In this document: positions 4,861-58,495 of the stretch, piece after piece
How the letters are laid out: each line of letters starts with the position of its first letter
Position numbering within the stretch: position 1 is the stretch's first letter
Source of the DNA: Angiostrongylus vasorum
Lineage: Eukaryota; Nematoda; Chromadorea; Rhabditida; Metastrongylidae
NCBI GenBank assembly: GCA_018806985.1
Contig: JADANN010000402.1
Span: forward strand, 124,001-188,000
Direction: 5' to 3'
Length of the DNA: 64,000 bases
Program-made: the position numbers and the translations under genes
The notes under the pieces: model-generated
Seen by the model: only the letters and a program-made list of their open reading frames with translations
Databases searched by the model: none
Told to the model about the DNA's origin: nothing

Positions 4861-5544
4861 ACGATGAATCGGTAAAGCGTTCGGAGGGTTTCTTTGTCTT
4901 ATAATGTGAAACTCTGGTTTTTCGTCGCTGTCTTTCTTTTGAGAGTATTTTTTGTTGCTGCCACTTTCCACAAAGGTTGTTATCGATTTTTTGAGAAGTG
5001 TGCTGTCCTCGTAGTTCTTTCTGAATTCGTTCGAAGCTTTCCACTTACAACTTACATGATGTCGTTATAAGCACTTTTGAGCGATTTCGAGGACGTTCTT
5101 CATCTCTATCTTTTGTTCTGCCAGTAATTCCTAGAGCCATGTGTTGGGACATCCGTTCAATAATATTTTACAGCTCTATTCATTCATTACTTTTTACACT
5201 TCATTTTTCAAGGCACCAAGTTTTTCGCATCAGCGGCCAGATTTCATTCACTTCACTTAGATGTCGATTACTCGAAAAAGGCGATTACACAAGAGAATCT
5301 CTCAACTTTAGAGGTGCGATTCATTCACTTTTTAAAATGGCCTTATTGCCATCTTTCTTTCATTTGAACTGCTGTGCTTCGTTTTTGGCTTAGATCACCA
5401 ACTTTTCACATCATTATCTTCTGGCTCGTACTTTCAGAAAAACTTTTTTTCTTCGTATTTAATGAATCTTGTTAGTTCTATTATCCTTGTCAGTGTATTT
5501 TCACGTCCCACGTAGTCTCATGTATCATTTCTTTTTGGTATATT

Positions 5545-5553
5545 TCAATTTAG
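5545..5553 (+). promoter_or_regulatory. Splice acceptor abutting the GPCPD1 start codon (putative SL trans-splice site)
   Basis: 'ttcaatttag' lies directly against the ATG at 5,554. In nematodes such an arrangement usually means that the mature mRNA begins with a spliced leader joined here. An additional upstream cis-spliced 5' exon cannot be excluded. Confidence 0.5.
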
Positions 5554-8500
5554 ATGTCTGGAAGCCTTAGAACAGCACGGGTATGCTTTGCCGTTGACGT
5601 TGAGGATTTGGGTCCATCTTACTTTGTACTTGTGACTGGTTCAACTACATCACTTGGAAAATGGGATCCTCTCAAAGCGAAACCCCTTACGAAGGATGCC
5701 GACAGACCGTCTGTTACTTTTTTATTACATCGTACATTAATGATTTATTGGTGGATTGAAAACTGGCTGAGACAGGCGAAACGAAGGACCCGCATGTTGT
5801 GGTGGTGAACGCATTAGTCCCCGGAAGGGGTAATAACGGAATCGATCCCCACCGCTGAGCCACCTGCTGTCCGAAGTTTTGCAAATATCTCAGCATCATT
5901 GTGGTTGAATTTCATACAATATCTTGTGATAAGGAATTGTATTAGGTAGTAAATAAAAGGTTAACATAATGATTATAATGTTAACCTTTTATTTGGTGCA
6001 TGCTATAATTTTTTACGGCAGGGTATAATGTGAAGTGCAACCACAACGATGCTGAGATATTCGTAAAAACTTGGGCCCTCGGGATAGATCGAACCACAAG
6101 GGCCTCCGTGGTGCAGTATGTAATGCGCAGGCCCCTGGAAAGGGTAATCGTGGTTCGATCTAGCCCAGGGTACAAGTTTTGCGAACATCTCAGCGTCATT
6201 GTGGTTGTATAATGATTATATTTATTTATATGTTCGTATGAACTGATCTTGTTAAGCTGATGCGAGCTTGGTATAAGTTGTTGTTGTTGCTGTTGTTGTG
6301 TTGTGTGTGTGTGTTGTTCGATGACTGACGTTCAGGTGATTTCGCCTTCCTGAGAGCCGCCTTTAATCTCACTGGAGTGGAGTCCCACTCGTAACAGCGG
6401 GGGCTCTGAGGAAGGCGAAATCGCCGAGACGTTTGTCATCGATCAACACCAAGAACGACTAACTGTACCAACCTTGCATCAGTTCAACATTATCAGTTTA
6501 TAAGAACATATAAACAATTACATCGATTATTCACGCCGACATTTATAGAAAGTCAGTCTTTTGAATGACTATAGTGTTTTATTGAGTATTATTTCAGTAC
6601 TCGTTGGCGTGGTTTTATGGATACAACGGACGATGACGTCCGTTTTCGATATTTCATTGGCTACTTCCTATCGAGCGAACAGGGAGAGCGTCTGATCATA
6701 GGTGAAGACGTGTCCAACTCCGTGATAAGCGTAGTGAAATTCCACACACACACACACAAATAAATGAGTGTCGACGTCGTACGAAGTGAGTATTGCACGT
6801 GACTGAGATTGTGTTGTACAACTGTACTGTGTGATGTTCGACACTCTTTATCCACCCACCAACTGCAGCCTGAGAGCGTATAGTGTGGCGATTCTGATGA
6901 TCTGAACGACTGTAGTAGGTTTTTGTCGTTCTCGTGGTATCTCTCGCTGGCCGTCACTTTCTACATGCTGCTCGGTACTTCTTCCCGGTCAGCCCGTGCT
7001 CTCGTAGTCTTAAATTCAAATTTTGATGGTTTGTGTGCTTTATTTGTAATTAATGAACTCCGTAGAGAAATAGATTGACTGACGAAATCTTCTTCATACT
7101 TCTTTCACATTATTACACTTATTTTTTCTTTTTTCTTTTTGTCACTTCAATACGGCTGCATAAGCTAGAAAAGAAGGAAAGAAAGAAGAAATATGGAAAA
7201 AAAAGTCGAAGTGACGTCGTAATTGCTTGTTAGACATTGCGTTCTTTGTATCTATACAATGTCTTAAGGAAAAACACATGCTAGTGAAGCAGGAATTCTT
7301 TTGGGTACACCTCTATCTAGTATCGCTCTATCATGTGTGGAAGCGGCGAGATTGAACCGAACTGTAGTAAACGTCCGACTGCCCCCAGATTTTTGTGGTC
7401 CCAGTTGTACCATATTTTGGGCTAATCAAACTCTTCTGTGAACTCTGTTTTTTTTTTTTTTTTGCCTTTTTTTAACCTAGAACCAAACTGAATAGGGGTC
7501 GGAGTATTGTGAGCTGCAAGCGAAATCTGTTAGATGAGCGAATCTCAGAGCTTTGAAGATTTTTCTTATTTCATCTAACTCTTTGGGAAAGAAGTTGTGT
7601 AGTGGGGAATAGTACTGCGAAGTCAACAGGATAAGCAGGAAGAAGTTTAGTGCTTACTGGCTGTTCAAAAATTAGTCTCGCATCTCTTGCTTTTCGCTTT
7701 AGACTAGAAGAAATTGGCAGATGTGAGAAATTTCAATGAAAACATCACCGCTGATAAGGGAGTAAATGAATGAGATTGCGAAAGAACTATGCTGTCCATC
7801 ATTGAGTTTGCCTTTGAATTATGACCAAATAGCTCTATTTAAGTCTGATTAGAAAACAATAAGCAAATTTCCACATATTTACTTCGAAGCAGTGCGATGG
7901 AAATAAGGATAGGTTCTTCGCTTAGTTTCTTAAGCGAAGATTAGTTGGTAGACTTTAGAGGATTTCTATACCATATAGAGAGTTCTCGAATTATAGAAAA
8001 TATTTGTTAGTTAGATAGAGAATTCTCTAATTGGTAGAGGGATTCTTTGTATAGACTGAATCAATACAGAATTCCTGATTTACCAGCATGGCCTTGACTG
8101 TAACCTTAATTAAGATTTCAACATCTATGTACTTAAATATAATAAAGTTCGATAGTCGGTGAATTGATCCACGTTTGAAGGATGACGTCATCAGAACCAT
8201 ATATGTTGGGGACATAAGCACATCGTATATGTGGCGTTTAGTAATAGAATTGTAATATAGCATTTGAAACATACAAGTATAATCATATCGGCGTTGATAA
8301 ATTTCATCGATGCGTCGCAGAATCTGCTCTTTCTGGAGTGGATTTGTTAGATCTCAGCACATTCATTACTTATTGGGGTCAGTGTATGGACAAGTCAATG
8401 TTTAATTTTCGCATATGGTGCAAATCTGCAACTGGCAAATTCACCTGCTGGGGTTGACGGGTGCTTAATAAATCGTATTTACCTTTTTACTGAATGCAAA

Positions 8501-11500
8501 CCTCGTAGTAATATCCTAGTTTTTGCTAACGATTTAGTCAGTATGGATGATGCACAGACGACGATTGAGGAGCTTAATGAGGCTAGAAGAAGTATAGGAT
8601 TGTACCGAGCATAAATCATGAGAAAGCCTATTTCATGAGTACACATTCGAAAGTAACGAAATTGAACTGCATGGTTCTAGTATTGTTGAGACCGTATCTG
8701 CGTGTATTTTCGTGAGTAGGGAAAGCTATATGAAGGAGGCACCTAGGAAAAGCCAGCAGTCATCTAAAGAAACATAAAGTCTTTGTTGACGTTTCTGACG
8801 CAACGCTCTGCTCAGGATTTTAGTGCGTAGCAAAATTTTAAACACACCTGCAGACCACTTGATGAGTGTCTTCTGGAATATAGCCATCAAGGGTAAAATC
8901 TAACAGGAGTGCCTGTCGGGTTCAGACTACCCAGTGCTCTCCCATCTTCAAGTTTTTGAAGAATCACTTGGAAAGTGGAGTGTAGATCGGATTATCACCT
9001 AATAAGAAGAATCAACGACGGGTGAAGGAGAAGGATAGTAGCATGAACTCTACGGGATGCAGATGGCTTTTGGAACTAGCATTGTACAATGAGCTAAACG
9101 TTTTATAGATAGCATAAATCGGTTCTGTTCTCAAATGGAAATGCCTCGTACGTTCGTCCACACGGTGATTTCTTCCTTCTGTATGTTACACGAATCTTCA
9201 TCACATCTAATGTGCGGATCCCAGCACTTCCTGCACTCGATTTATTTTCGCGAATCCATCATCCACGAAGGCCTTCAAAAATCTCGCGTGTTTCATTTGT
9301 TGCATGAGGAATTCGTCTTCGTTATGAATGTCATAGAATGCTGGTCGAATTTGCTATCATTATCCAGTCTTGGAGTTAACAGGACTAAGGCATTTCTACG
9401 TGGATTATGCTCTCCTTCAATCACTGGATGATACTAGCTTGCATCAATTACTCGAGAAAAACGCCGTAGGTGATAATCACGAGGCAAGGAATTGAATGAG
9501 GCGATTTACTAGAGCTGGCGCTACTCGTGAAAACGAGCTGTAGAAATATCCAAATCACACTGAAAAGACCGAGTTTCTTTAAACCTCTTCATAGATAGTT
9601 GATATATTTATTTCCATGATCTTATAAACTGATCTTGTTTAGCTGATGCGAGGTTGCTATAAGTCTTCGTTGTTGTTGTTGTTGCTGTTGTTCTTGTTGG
9701 TCGATGGCTGACGGTGCGGCGATTTCGCCTTCCTCAGAGCCGTGATGTTACGAGTGGGAAAAAATAGCTAAATCACAGTATTCTAACTGAGATTTCATGT
9801 TTCTCATCACTGCGTGTAAACTGGTCGGTTACGGTGTTGAGATGGGGGTCCACGCCATCATTATGTCAAAATATAGACCAATTAAAGTCGTAATAGCTAT
9901 TGTAGTTTATATGGCAGTCTGACCAATGAGTTCTCTATCACCACATATGAGATACCTTGTTATCTGCGCATGATTTGTATAGCTCTTAAGGACCAATTTC
10001 CGTTAAACCTTGGTTACAATAATCAATAATCAATAAACTTTTGGATGACTGAGCTAACACGAGGTTGGTTTAAACCTTAATAAGTCATGTTGGAGTCGAC
10101 GATCGATCAGCACCTGCCCTGTGGAAGAGGATACCACCTAGTGAAGTTTCGTTTTCGAGCGGTGCTATCACTTCACTGGATTCTTCGACTCGATGCGACA
10201 ACGACCAGCTGTGAACCATCGACTCGGACCCATCCACAAAGCTCTGAGGAAGACGAGAGCCCCGAAACATTAGCAGAACAATTCTCCTCCTACCCAGTCT
10301 CATGTCAGCTCACTCATTTTGTGTAGATCTTAGTTTGGAAGAAAAGTTTTCTTTCGAAGGTTGTATGTTAAAGGAGACGAAGCCTAAATGACAAACCCAC
10401 TCCAAGGCCACCGGATTCTCCATCCATTTGGAGCCAGTGAATATGTCAGGGATTCGTATGCGGAATTTAAGCACGGATCTATCAGTCATTTTCGGGTAAT
10501 TTCTAAAATAGACCACCAATCGATGAGACTGATCAATGCTGGTATCTTAGTATTTTTTCCGCTTTTTTTAAATGTGATGAGAAATGATTGCGGCAATCTT
10601 TGAACCTTTAAACTCTAATAATTCTGATGTGTTGTGATATGAGAATATGTACGTTCGCCTCATCAAAAAGGTTACGAATTGTCATTGTTGTCGAGCTCGC
10701 GGTTATCGCAATTGTACTAAGATCTCTAGGCAAATTATATCCCTTCCAATATTTGTTTCATACCCCGCATAATCGCTTTCAGATAAATGGGAGTCGTTTC
10801 TTCATCCACGATTAGTTGTTCTTAAAGGAGAAAACAAGGGATCAGTTTTCCGAGCGAATCACGTCGACCTCTTCGGCTACTACGCTGGTCGAAAAGTAGT
10901 TTCGGAAGGATGGTTACAATACGATGAAGAGAACCAGATTCTTCTTCGTCTTCACGGTTTCGCTCTGAAGTTCTACAAATCAGCAAAAGAGCGAAAGAAC
11001 TGTACAATAAAAATCAATCCCATGGATGTAAGACATCGTTTGAAGAACGGAGCTCAGATCAGCTTCAGCTATGGTGTAGACGAAGAGGATGATGATGACG
11101 ATAATGGATCACCTGCGTATCCCAGTCATTCGCCCATTTCTGTGGCGGTACTCTCTGACAGAAATCCAAAGTTTACACGACAACCAGAAGTAGGGGTGCT
11201 GTTCAACAATAACGTAGACTACATTGTGTATAAAACACATTCAGTTGCTGTCGAATTCTTGGCATTCTACATTGAGATATTTTCGGAAGAAGGGAAACGA
11301 ATTGGTGCATGCTATGCCCTTCCATCATCCCTTTCAGATTCATGTGGTCATTCGAACTTACCATTCATTAATTCATCAGGAAGACCAATTGGACAAATTT
11401 CTGTAGAATATCTTTTTGTACGTAATTTGCGTCGATCCATCCCAAAACAAACGATGGAAGTGTCATATACAAGGCACTGGAAGAAAAGAAATACGATAGA

Positions 11501-30479: not shown

Positions 30480-30960
30480 TCTTAAGAAGGACAACTCTCG
30501 AGCATTCGGCATTCGGTAGTAATTGAAACAGCACCGAGCACTCTAAGACGCCAGCTAGTTCGTAAACATTTGTTTGAACGTCTACGTGCAGCGCAAAATT
30601 GCACAGTATGCCCTAACTGTAAGGACGGCGATTGCACGAATTCGGGTACAGTATATCTGACCCCTTGAAAAGCATGTAGAGAAGAATATATTGGCGAAAC
30701 GGGCAGACCACTCTGTGTCCCTCTAACAGAACAGCTGGACGGCAAACTTAAGCCAAGTACTCCACTTGCCGTGCATAGAACACATATAAAACAGGGGAAG
30801 ATTTTCAAGTAGAACTTATCATCCTCGCACAGGAATCGAAAACACCAACTCTTAAAGCATTCTCGATAAATCCCAAGAAAATAAACCGCAGGGAAGAATG
30901 CCTCGCAATAACGCGTGATCTAACACCGTATTTAAGGCATATTTCAATGTGCCTTCCAAT
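30480..30960 (+). pseudogene. Decayed GIY-YIG endonuclease of a Penelope-like element
   Basis: On the plus strand the reading gives CTVCPNCKDGDC followed by SGTVYLTP, a stop, then EEYIGETGRPLC, and later a block matching TITRDLAPYF-like sequence. This is the Cys-rich linker plus GIY-YIG nuclease core found at the C-terminus of Penelope-type proteins. At least two in-frame stops and a shift near 30,810 make it non-functional. Confidence 0.75.
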
Positions 30961-54639: not shown

Positions 54640-55440
54640 GTGGTTGATATAACATTTATTCACAAAAACTAACCTTTCGGCGGTTACTCCTCCTTTAGAG
54701 CCTGGAAGGGTCAAACTGGCTCATAATCTACTTAGTCAAGCTCTTTCCCTAATTTAACAGATGAAACTATACATAAATCGCCGTGTTCTTGATAATCACA
54801 TGCTAGGTTGTCACTCCATTCCTTATTCACAAAAGCTGACGTTTCGGCGCATTTCGCCCTCTTCAGAGCTTGGAAGGGTCAAGATGACTTAATAGCAATC
54901 TGGTAGACCTAATACCTTTATAAATGAAACCAAAGAATCACGAAACCTGGATTTCAATCGCATTGGAAACGAAATAAGTTTTTCGCACACTCACCGCTTT
55001 CTATGAGTCTTCCACTAAGTATCTCACGCGGAGACCAACCGTACGGCGTTCACATGGATGGACAATGAGCCGCTCAAACATTAAAATATCAATATTTGAG
55101 AGATTACGAAAGATGAAGAGTGCGGTCAGTACGGTTAGCCTCCAAGTGAAATACTCAATAGAAACCTCGTAGAAAGCGGCGATTGTGCGAGGATTGTAAT
55201 ATTTTGTTTCAACGCGATTGCAGTGTAGTTCTCGTGATTCTTCTGTTGCACTTGTAGAGATTTAGAGATGTTGGGCTGGCCATGCACCCACTTCGAACCT
55301 TCCAAGCTTTGAAGAGGGAGAAATCCGACGAAACGTCGGCTTTTTTTGTGAATAAAGAATAGAGTAACAATCTCTTGTGTGTTTCTGAAGAAAATGCCGA
55401 TCAATGCCGAGGTTAATAAAAAAGTTAGTCCTGGGAATAA
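54640..55440. mobile_element. PLE-derived coding-less fold-back with an extra terminal copy
   Basis: The left arm (54,812-~55,085) contains 'gctgacgtttcggcgcattt', 'cttcagagcttggaagg' and 'gctttctatgagtcttcc'. The right arm (~55,117-55,440) inverts these ('cctcgtagaaagc', 'ccaagctttgaagagggag', 'gacgaaacgtcggc', 'gatcaatgccgaggtt'). Only ~30-50 bp separate the arms and no coding sequence is present. A further partial arm in the left orientation lies just upstream (54,640-54,790), making a partial tandem. Confidence 0.75.
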
Positions 55441-55539: not shown

Positions 55540-55710
55540 AGTCTTACATGGGTCTGGAATGTGCCTGACTTGGACCAGGAAAAATTGTCCTGAAGTATGG
55601 CGCGAGGTCACGCGTGATGAGAAGGCAGTCTTCCCTGCGTTTCACTTTTGGATTTTTGAAATTTATGCAAAAGCTTAAAGAATTTTGTGCACGAATCTTT
55701 TTATATATAT
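55540..55710 (-). pseudogene. Remnant of PLE GIY-YIG C-terminus
   Basis: On the minus strand this corresponds to the region of the intact 57-kb element coding for the KTLEVFWIIF...TITRDLAPYF block ('tcatcacgcgtgacctcgcg' matches 'tatcacacgtgacctggcg'). It has stops and no nuclease core. Confidence 0.55.
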
Positions 55711-56429
55711 GCCAGGACATTGAGCCTTACACCAAAACCTTCTTCATTATGTCTTGGTCCCCGATGGGTGCCGAGCTTAGTGTTTAGCTTCGCTTTGAGT
55801 TCCACGTTCTTTCATAAGGGTGCAATGCAGTCTACCCGTTTAGCTAACGTATTCCGTATTCACACCCACGTTCTTTAAAAGAAATCAAGTGCACAGTGCC
55901 CGAATTCATGGAGTCACCGTTTCTCCGTTATATTATACTGAAACCAATATCTATTTATATGATCTTATAAACCGATCTTCTTTTGCTAATGCGAGGTTGG
56001 TATAGGTGTTCGTTGTCGTTGTCGTAGTTGTTGGTGTTGTTGGTCGATGGCTGACGTTTCGGCGATTTCGCCTTCCTCACAGCTTGCACGTATTTTATAC
56101 AGGAATACTTTAATTATTCGGTGGAAAAAAGGCTAAAGTATTAATGATGATCAAACTTTTAAATACATGGTGCGTTAGGACGCTACGGTCAAATGTATTT
56201 CTAAGCCATACTGAACAGAAAGGCTACTCATCGTGATGTTACGAGTGGGACTGGCCCACGCGTTGTTCACGTGGGGTCGCGAGTAAGACACACCCCGGGG
56301 TCGAAATATTATTTTGAAATAGGGCGCCAGGTCACGTGTGATAGTGAGGCATTCGTGTTTCCGGTTCATCTTTGGATTTTTGAATTTTATCCAAAACGCC
56401 CCAAGAGTTTTGCGCGTTGATGCTTTTCG

Positions 56430-57018
56430 CTTACTCCACTGTCGATACATAGAGGACCGCTTCATCGTCTGTTCCACACGGGAACAGATGGATAAGTGCT
56501 TTGAATTGTTAAACCGACAGTCAGAGTATATAAAATTTATACGAGAATAACCAACCGAAAACTGGCTTCCATCCTTAAACATCCAAATAAAGCTCTCAGA
56601 AAGTGGTTATATAACAAAAATGGTATCGTAAGCCAAGTAGTGAAAATATACTGGTTCACTACCTCTCCTCACACATGAAAAAAAGCACTTGTCAAAAAAC
56701 ATGTACCATACCGCTAAAAATATGTGCACAGGAGAAGAGGAAAGGGAGGAATCGCAAAACCTGGCACGAAAAACAGCCATTTCCAATGGCTACGAAGTAG
56801 AAGCCACTCGGGTTAGACAAAAACGTAGGGTAGTTCCCCAAAATAATGTTTCGGACGCAAGTAAGATCCCTTTTAAGCTACCCTTCACATCAAATGAAGT
56901 AAGTTACGCCATTAAGAGATGCTTAAGAAGAAGTGGTCTTGAAAATTATGTAACGATTACTGACATCCCACACAATACCCCACGCTCTCAGCTAGTTCGC
57001 AACCGACCGTCTCTGTGA
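56430..57018 (+). pseudogene. PLE reverse transcriptase C-terminus and linker, broken
   Basis: Reads RYIEDRFIVCSTREQMDK and LLNRQSEYIKF, the region of the Y-x-D-D catalytic motif of Penelope reverse transcriptases (second residue pair here I-E-D, so the first Asp is Glu). After stops near 56,550 and a shift, a linker follows (56,689-57,018) with ARKTAISNGYEVEATR. A further one-base shift near 57,000 separates it from the endonuclease frame. The upstream palm and finger domains are missing, cut off by the inverted left arm. Confidence 0.75.
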
Positions 57019-57538
57019 TCGTTTGTGCAGCTTAGGAAACTGTACGATCTGTCCTAGCGGAAGAGACGGGGATTGCATGAGTTCAGGTATAATATACTTG
57101 ATCTCATGTAACGCATGCGGTGAGGAGTATATTGGGGAAACGGATAGACCACTTTGTGTCCGCATAAAAGATCATCTAGATGGTAAAGCTAAAATTCGTC
57201 AAAATACTCCTCTAGGTACGCATAGGGCACAAAAGCACAACGGCGATGATTTTGAAGTGACTGTACGGATCCTAGCGCAGGAATCGAAAACGCCAACGCG
57301 CAAAACTCTTGAGGTGTTTTGGATAATTTTCAAAAATCCAGAGATGAACCGGAAAGACGAATGCCTCACTATCACACGTGACCTGGCGCCCTATTTCAAA
57401 ATAATATTTCGACCCCGGGGTGTGTCTTACTCGCGACCCCACGTGAACAACGCGTGGGCCAGTCCCACTCGTAACATCACGATGAGTAGCCTTTCTGTTC
57501 AGTATGGCTTAGAAATACATTTGACCGTAGCGTCCTAA
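57008..57538 (+). CDS. GIY-YIG endonuclease domain of Penelope-like element 1
   Basis: An open frame of ~175 codons ending at the stop 57,536-57,538. A Cys motif (CSLGNCTICPSGRDGDC) precedes the nuclease core SGIIYLISC..EEYIGETDRPLCVRIKDH, which has the GIY-like and YIG blocks, the conserved Arg after YIGET-x-x, and a following H. The block THRAQKHNGDDF continues the fold. In Penelope-type proteins this domain nicks target DNA during retrotransposition. It has no start codon of its own and is the C-terminal part of a broken polyprotein, so probably not expressed as a functional protein. Confidence 0.8.
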   Translation, partial: RLCDRLCSLGNCTICPSGRDGDCMSSGIIYLISCNACGEEYIGETDRPLCVRIKDHLDGKAKIRQNTPLGTHRAQKHNGDDFEVTVRILAQESKTPTRKTLEVFWIIFKNPEMNRKDECLTITRDLAPYFKIIFRPRGVSYSRPHVNNAWASPTRNITMSSLSVQYGLEIHLTVAS

Positions 57539-57815
57539 CGCACCATGTATTTAAAAGTTTGATCATCATTAATACTTTAGCCTTTTTTTTCCACCGAATA
57601 ATTAAAGTATTCCTGTATAAAATACGTGCAAGCTGTGAGGAAGGCGAAATCGCCGAAACGTCAGCCATCGACCAACAACACCAACAACGACGACGACGAC
57701 AACGAACACCTATACCAACGTCGCATTAGCAAAGGAAGATCAGTTTATAAGATCATATAAATGGATATATCAATTATCTATGCCGAGGTTTATAGAAAGT
57801 CGGTCTTTTGAGTGA

Positions 57816-58495
57816 AACTAATATCATTGTGCATCGTTAACGTCAAATAAAACATGCTCTCATAATGCCGTTATGGACGCATGAAACAGGTTTAAATAAA
57901 CAAGACCTATAATGTAATGAAATACCATCACGTGTTTCCCAATGATGTCAAGAATAAAAAATCTAACTGTTAAAGAGAACGGTTATTAGCTCTGTACACT
58001 GCGGCCTTCCGGAGTGCAGGGAGTCCATGGATTTCGGGCAACGGAAGGCTTCGTGGGCGGTGAAGAACGCAAAATATTTTTTGTATTATTCAATAAACAA
58101 GCTAGAACATAGCGTCATTGAGTAAATGATAAAACTAAGCCAAGAAGGCTGTCACAGTATTGTCAATAGTATGGATGGTTATGGACAGCTGTGCATATTA
58201 TTTCGACTATGGTTTCAATTGTCTATTCATCTTGCATAATAACGCTCTGTTAGATCACCTGTATCACCTGCACCAGTGAAGATTTCATTCATTTATATCG
58301 TACGCCACGACACCAAGACGGTGCTTGTGAAGAGAATGTTGAGCTTCGTTGGAGTAGAGGTTGGAATAACTCGTTGTTTGGTGAAGCCCCGAACCTGCTG
58401 CATTATATTTTTAAATGACTTCACTGCAAGGCCCAGTTGTACGAGTGTTTGTGATACGTAGACATAAATGGAATGCGCTCATGAAAATATTCATG
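57816..58495. other. Intergenic, nothing recognised
   Basis: Frames are short and without motifs; no repeat family detected. Confidence 0.4.

Follow-up and report, generated by a model that had tools for sequence, protein, structure and literature searches.

Inverted, singly tailed copies of a nematode Penelope-like element suggest two-sided target-primed insertion

The window analysed here, a 64,000-nucleotide stretch of an Angiostrongylus vasorum contig, contains a 5'-truncated Penelope-like element with inverted arms of ~480 bp, located at about 55,952-57,812. From its sequence and that of related copies in the genome, we consider it likely (probability roughly 0.7) that this insertion arose in a single event by two-sided target-primed reverse transcription. 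In the proposed mechanism, the element protein would nick both target strands and each nick would prime reverse transcription of element RNA, with one cDNA begun beyond the tail and the other short of it, at two distinct start sites. Both cDNAs would end early and would then be joined end to end in a head-to-head orientation, and the arms of the window copy would later have been partly homogenised by gene conversion. Two convergent cDNAs from two start sites would leave outward-facing 3' ends, a single tail, target-site duplications (TSDs) and a free junction. The features of the window copy are collected in Table 1.

Table 1. Features of the fold-back Penelope-like insertion in the window.
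Feature	Position	Strand	Basis or remark
Left TSD TGAAACCAATATC (13 bp)	55939..55951	+	12/13 match to 57813-57825
Left inverted arm, antisense copy of element 3' end, outer end without tail	55952..56430	-	arm alignment
Substitution-free stretch between arms	56027..56356, partner about 57357-57688	.	putative gene-conversion tract
Head-to-head junction of left arm and 5'-truncated body	56430..56431	.	coordinates on copy L018
5'-truncated body: end of reverse transcriptase region, GIY-YIG endonuclease, 3' UTR	56431..57765	+	
GIY-YIG domain	57086..57322	+	PF01541, 22.0 bits, E 2e-4, cut-off 22.6
Right arm	57283..57765	+	arm alignment
Hammerhead-like core	57635..57662	+	first C of CTGANGA core is G in both window arms
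Tail, 45 bp, right end only	57768..57812	+	common to tail-bearing ends of other copies
Right TSD TGAAACTAATATC	57813..57825	+	partner of TGAAACCAATATC

A first-pass annotation had placed the element at 55948..57770. The element is indeed found there, but the insert is longer, as the 45-bp tail had been missed. The TSDs, which the annotation had suggested looking for just outside the arms, form a 13-bp pair with a single mismatch; the window contains no further instance of this pattern (chance 0.01). The same 13-base overlap was obtained from a search with the joined flanks, in which the left flank matched query 1-132 and the right 120-256. No empty allele was found by this search, the joined flanks matching only themselves and 14 places with 73-76% identity to the left flank. 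On the coordinates of copy L018, to which the body is 88.9% identical, the window junction jumps from 2185 (antisense) to 1325 (sense), and in a tblastn comparison with Ancylostoma proteins 56431-57409 was matched for P0003. The sequence thus bears out the proposal that this copy is 5'-truncated and terminates in an inverted duplicate of its 3' portion.

The window holds further Penelope remnants. A second, older and shorter fold-back of the same superfamily lies at 6217-6564, with an untailed inverted end (6217-6358), a direct end running into a tail (6402-6564) and 43 bp between them; similar palindromes recur in the genome. A third, old fold-back with arms about 68% alike is located at 54761-55417, 530 bp to the left of the main element. 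Its repeat family has many candidates in the genome, and its kinship to Penelope was judged by eye from an end motif. In addition, a Penelope coding piece of another family is present at 30516-30944, a tailed 3' end at 9559-9741, and an antisense piece at 55580-55930 adjoins the main element on its left.

The identity of the family follows from its coding content. The window frame 56,996-57,538 matches the GIY-YIG profile with a score slightly below the Pfam cut-off (Table 1), while the equivalent frame of copy L023 clears it with 22.8 bits. A 44-bit RVT_1 match is located upstream of GIY-YIG in the frame of a relative, L012, and the endonuclease hence lies C-terminal to the reverse transcriptase in this family (L023, window and L012 frames). 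These matches agree with the earlier assignment to Penelope-like elements with a GIY-YIG frame. The unbroken L023 frame matches 64 proteins, many without an organism name; all those with one are from strongylid nematodes (Ancylostoma, Angiostrongylus, Haemonchus, Nippostrongylus, Heligmosomoides and Parelaphostrongylus), and these relatives point to a strongylid nematode as the host, in line with the nematode that had been supposed. A hammerhead ribozyme motif is a further trait of Penelope-like elements, and a strict core string that resembles the hammerhead core (CTGANGA) is present in 64 of 86 family ends. A first Rfam search for a ribozyme gave no match, and a second gave three matches far under the gathering scores.

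The recurrence of the inverted form was determined from genome searches, in each of which 40 places were scored. The 3' end abounds in the genome (1,684-3,195 loose first-look candidates) and the 5' region far rarer (131), as 5' truncation is expected to give; these totals are not copy counts. Sample A comprised 21 of the 40 scored places, window included, and an inverted 3'-end arm was present in 14. Among the other places in this sample, L013 duplicates the L010 locus and has a partial arm, L019 and L022 have internal inverted pieces only, and L014, L016, L017 and L027 have no inverted piece. Picking by the 5' region (sample B, 11 of 40 scored places) gave an inverted arm in all 11, in L052 through a 32-bp match only. 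Picking by a tailed 3' end near that of L011 (sample C, 12 of 40) gave 8 of 12. The claim that the form recurs in the genome is supported by both. Sample D consisted of 11 close pairs picked from their positions, which are fold-backs by choice. Two rows were dropped, i.e. L013, whose shared junction and flanks with L010 mark a duplicated locus, and L041, which is identical to L018.

The copies vary widely in body start, consistent with 5' truncation, and the left arm can include as much as ~1.1 kb from the 3' half (L042 and L050). In L043, L048, L049 and L052, an inverted 3' end is followed by a direct 3' end with tail, ~325 bp of 5' region and the body. Such a pseudo-LTR, a direct 3' end ahead of the ORF, is thus seen in 4 of the 11 sample B copies, and is absent from the truncated window copy. 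Close neighbours among 141 distinct 3' ends were also compared: 0.43 neighbours are expected by chance, whereas 19 pairs were found, 18 of them head-to-head. The remaining pair is direct and 5 kb apart, and none is tail-to-tail.

Both outer ends of the fold-back copies are element 3' ends that face outward, and each coincides with either of two positions that are ~50 bp apart. An optional tail of 30-40 bp on one end is expected of a Penelope-like element; here the tail is about 45-50 bp and, in 40 of 43 fold-back copies, is found on one outer end but not on the other, a count that includes L032, L045 and L052, each with an incomplete end, and leaves aside L051, whose right end was not found. 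For sample C and part of sample D, a tailed end was among the selection criteria, and only the opposite end is informative there. In samples A and B, which were chosen regardless of tail, 22 of 23 copies have one tail (p = 2.7e-6 if the two ends were independent), or 21 of 22 when L045 is omitted. The tail is on the longer side in 16 copies and on the shorter in 6 (p = 0.052), and no rule is claimed from this. In L016, at 5320-6728, ~1.35 kb separates the tail from the 3' end, as would result from the insertion of another element between the two.

These end states bear on an alternative in which an antisense transcript of the element folds at its 3' end and copies itself, thus creating head-to-head repeats from one molecule. 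Such self-priming predicts the head-to-head orientation seen in 18 of the 19 close pairs. It also predicts that the two outer ends are alike, whereas they consist of one tailed and one untailed end in nearly all copies. We consider self-priming an unlikely main source of the fold-backs.

The single tail is associated with TSDs. A TSD score of at least 8 was found in 28 of 40 fold-back copies (L032, L045 and L052 were omitted owing to their incomplete ends), compared to 0.9 expected from 480 mismatched pairs. A score of at least 7 was reached by 30 of the 37 one-tail copies (2.5 of 40 expected), with 7 of 37 below it. The three exceptions to the one-tail pattern, L024, L053 and L061 (two double-tailed, one tailless), all score 3 or less; the difference, 0 of 3 against 30 of 37, is significant (Fisher p = 0.012). 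Among the copies without a 3'-end arm, TSDs are present in 4 of 10: exact 9-bp repeats in L014, L031 and L033, and in L035 a 13-bp repeat with one mismatch, judged by eye. A 10-bp flank match in L027 was rejected as a TSD since it is an AT repeat.

Two separate insertions placed head-to-head, or a later inversion or ectopic recombination, could also be envisaged, and L024, L053 and L061, which lack TSDs, could belong here. However, the TSDs of most copies tested flank the fold-back in its entirety, and close pairs are almost exclusively head-to-head and never tail-to-tail. This makes separate events a very improbable explanation in general; for the window copy they are refuted, provided that the 12/13 match counts as a TSD.

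The inner ends argue for independent formation of most copies. The inner end of the arm and the start of the body differ from copy to copy, and among 44 copies they coincide (within 3 bases) only between L045 and L046 and between L050 and L051; most fold-backs therefore arose independently. The first-pass annotation had suggested a recurrent fold-back form. It is the mode of insertion that recurs, but not the form itself, as the window junction is found in none of the 43 other fold-back copies. Descent of the fold-backs from one or few master copies, copied whole through RNA, is accordingly quite improbable. The two pairs do share junctions at different sites, their alignments ending at the left edge of the element, and this is as such descent would have it; in contrast, no further pair agrees to within 3 bases in both coordinates, and L045 and L046 differ in the tail states of their outer ends. 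A master element as the main route is thus refuted in this sample by the diversity of junctions, leaving it at most a minor route. As junctions are shared at different sites in these two pairs, a few of the fold-backs seem to have been recopied. It is possible that fold-back copies, as in these pairs, may be recopied with the cDNAs joined through their arms.

The same junctions can be compared with the expectation for self-priming, which predicts that arm and body turn at one and the same position. Instead, their end positions on the element differ in 42 of 44 copies, including the window copy (2185 versus 1325). The exceptions are L054 (290-370) and L057 (375-455), which turn at a single point with arm and body coordinates within 1 and 28-29 bp between, and arm and body lie within 60 bp of each other in 9 of 44 copies, 5 of which (L053-L057) come from the close-pair sample. 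There may hence be a second, self-primed route that is hairpin-like as in L054 and L057. L057, despite its single-point turn, still has one tail and a 12-bp TSD.

A further distinction between self-priming and two-sided priming is the number of templates, self-priming predicting one. With ungrouped rows set aside, a tree of 44 arms places both arms of the same copy in one group for 8 of 14 copies, as self-priming would have it; support is strong in three of these (the window copy, L018 and L036). The arms of L012 and L015 are split by supported branches, and the remaining 4 of 14 copies are without resolution. In a longer tree, the arms of L012 and L063, both TSD-flanked, fall in different supported clades, contrary to a single template, although an AU test did not reject sisterhood of the arms in L012 (p 0.093), L063 (p 0.344) or L023. 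L012 has a perfect 12-bp TSD, its left arm lacks four young-clade states that are found in the right arm, and private differences number 22 in the left arm versus 3 in the right. L015 has no clear TSD, and may therefore represent two events. An uneven share of private differences is also seen in L026 (48:21, p = 0.0016), and in L029 (16:0) and L036 (12:0), where the counts are biased because L029-L040 were chosen by a well-preserved right end. Sites 2222-2233 were rejected as diagnostic, as they look like an alignment artefact. Two templates are likely for L012, and the arm sequences suggest, without proving it, that two may be used more widely.

The annotation had described the arms as near-identical over ~480 bp. 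Alignment of the window arms shows 465 of 485 columns identical with 8 gap columns, i.e. 97.5% identity without gaps; BLAST gave 96.1% over a slightly longer stretch of 491 columns, and a repeat search split the arms into two inverted pairs, each 97% complementary. The near-identity is thus real, but it is probably largely a product of gene conversion in this copy. Across 332 columns there is no difference except one indel in an A-run, and all substitutions sit in the outer 77 and inner 76 columns. A clean run of this length was reached in none of 200,000 shuffles of the remaining 16 events. Divergence at the ends of the window arms is about that between the arms of other old copies (9-13%), and in the arm tree both window arms sit on a shared long branch (0.05) with short tips. 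Given this clustering of the differences, we infer later arm-to-arm gene conversion as the most straightforward explanation. Recent insertion from a diverged source was rejected as the sole cause, since it would not on its own produce such a pattern. In a test of 23 copies, conversion was clear in the window copy only (p at the floor of 2000 shuffles); L063 gave p = 0.0015, and L060, L028 and L059 were nominal. L055 and L057, beyond the 23, gave no arm match.

Near-identical inverted arms might also raise the concern of an assembly or long-read fold-back artefact, the structure being known from the assembly. This is scarcely credible: the arms of other copies differ by 1-13%, the symmetry ends at the element's own 3' end with TSDs outside, and 40-odd copies have junctions of their own.

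Insertion by two nicks has a parallel in LINE-1. In LINE-1 5' inversion (twin priming), two nicks of one target prime on the element RNA and create an inverted 5' piece; the inverted piece is an internal segment that is present once. Unlike this, the left arm of the fold-backs is a second copy of the 3' end, with a 3' terminus of its own. Inversion of the LINE-1 type was set aside, as the inverted segment is duplicated elsewhere in the copy.

Closer counterparts are found among Penelope elements. A 2013 rotifer study describes Pen2a_Av and its relatives in Adineta vaga with an RT and GIY-YIG ORF, a direct pseudo-LTR beside an inverted one, a 9-10 bp TSD in some copies, 5' truncation and head-to-head inverted repeats (PMC3846280). 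It also describes a tail on one of the inverted pLTRs, and considers self-priming on antisense RNA the best interpretation of palindromic junctions. Inverted pLTRs and short 3' extensions are likewise given as Penelope features in PMC8969392. The passages of PMC12910113 consulted contain nothing on inverted Penelope ends. The arrangement of inverted and direct 3' ends in L043, L048, L049 and L052 resembles that of A. vaga; in comparison, copies here are far more numerous, the left arm can reach ~1.1 kb, and the one-tail pattern is countable and tied to TSDs. The fold-back form, which the first-pass annotation had thought worth describing, is therefore not new, inverted terminal copies with an optional tail being already in print (PMC3846280). 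What is added is the counts for this nematode family and their tie to TSDs. The literature searched, with most subscription papers outside reach, contained no work that deals with this family or that links a counted one-tail rule to TSDs.

Biochemical data are available for Poseidon PAc of Anolis carolinensis. The purified protein cuts and extends each of the two strands, and begins reverse transcription at two sites within the RNA, with the tail as the interval between them (PMC11167929), which speaks for two-sided priming. A tail of similar length is found at some insertion ends in both systems. The start sites were alike on top and bottom strands (PMC11167929), and strand-exclusive use was hence not seen in vitro. 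Unlike this biochemistry of one element without strand preference, the genomic products described here suggest one start site per strand.

Fold-back copies are large palindromes whose arms can exchange sequence, as seems to be so in the window copy. On the second strand, inverted terminal repeats and optional tail of Penelope, the rotifer study leans to self-priming and the 2024 in vitro study stops earlier. The copy number of this nematode family lets the rules of insertion be counted, and the one-tail pattern tied to TSDs favours two-sided priming. More tentatively, and with slightly less than even confidence, we propose that Penelope insertion could be obligately asymmetric and two-sided, carried out by a dimeric RNP whose two protomers would start reverse transcription on opposite sides of the tail, at times using separate RNA molecules. 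If true, a complete insertion would always have one tailed and one untailed outward 3' end, and one-armed 5'-truncated copies would represent reactions with one failed cDNA.
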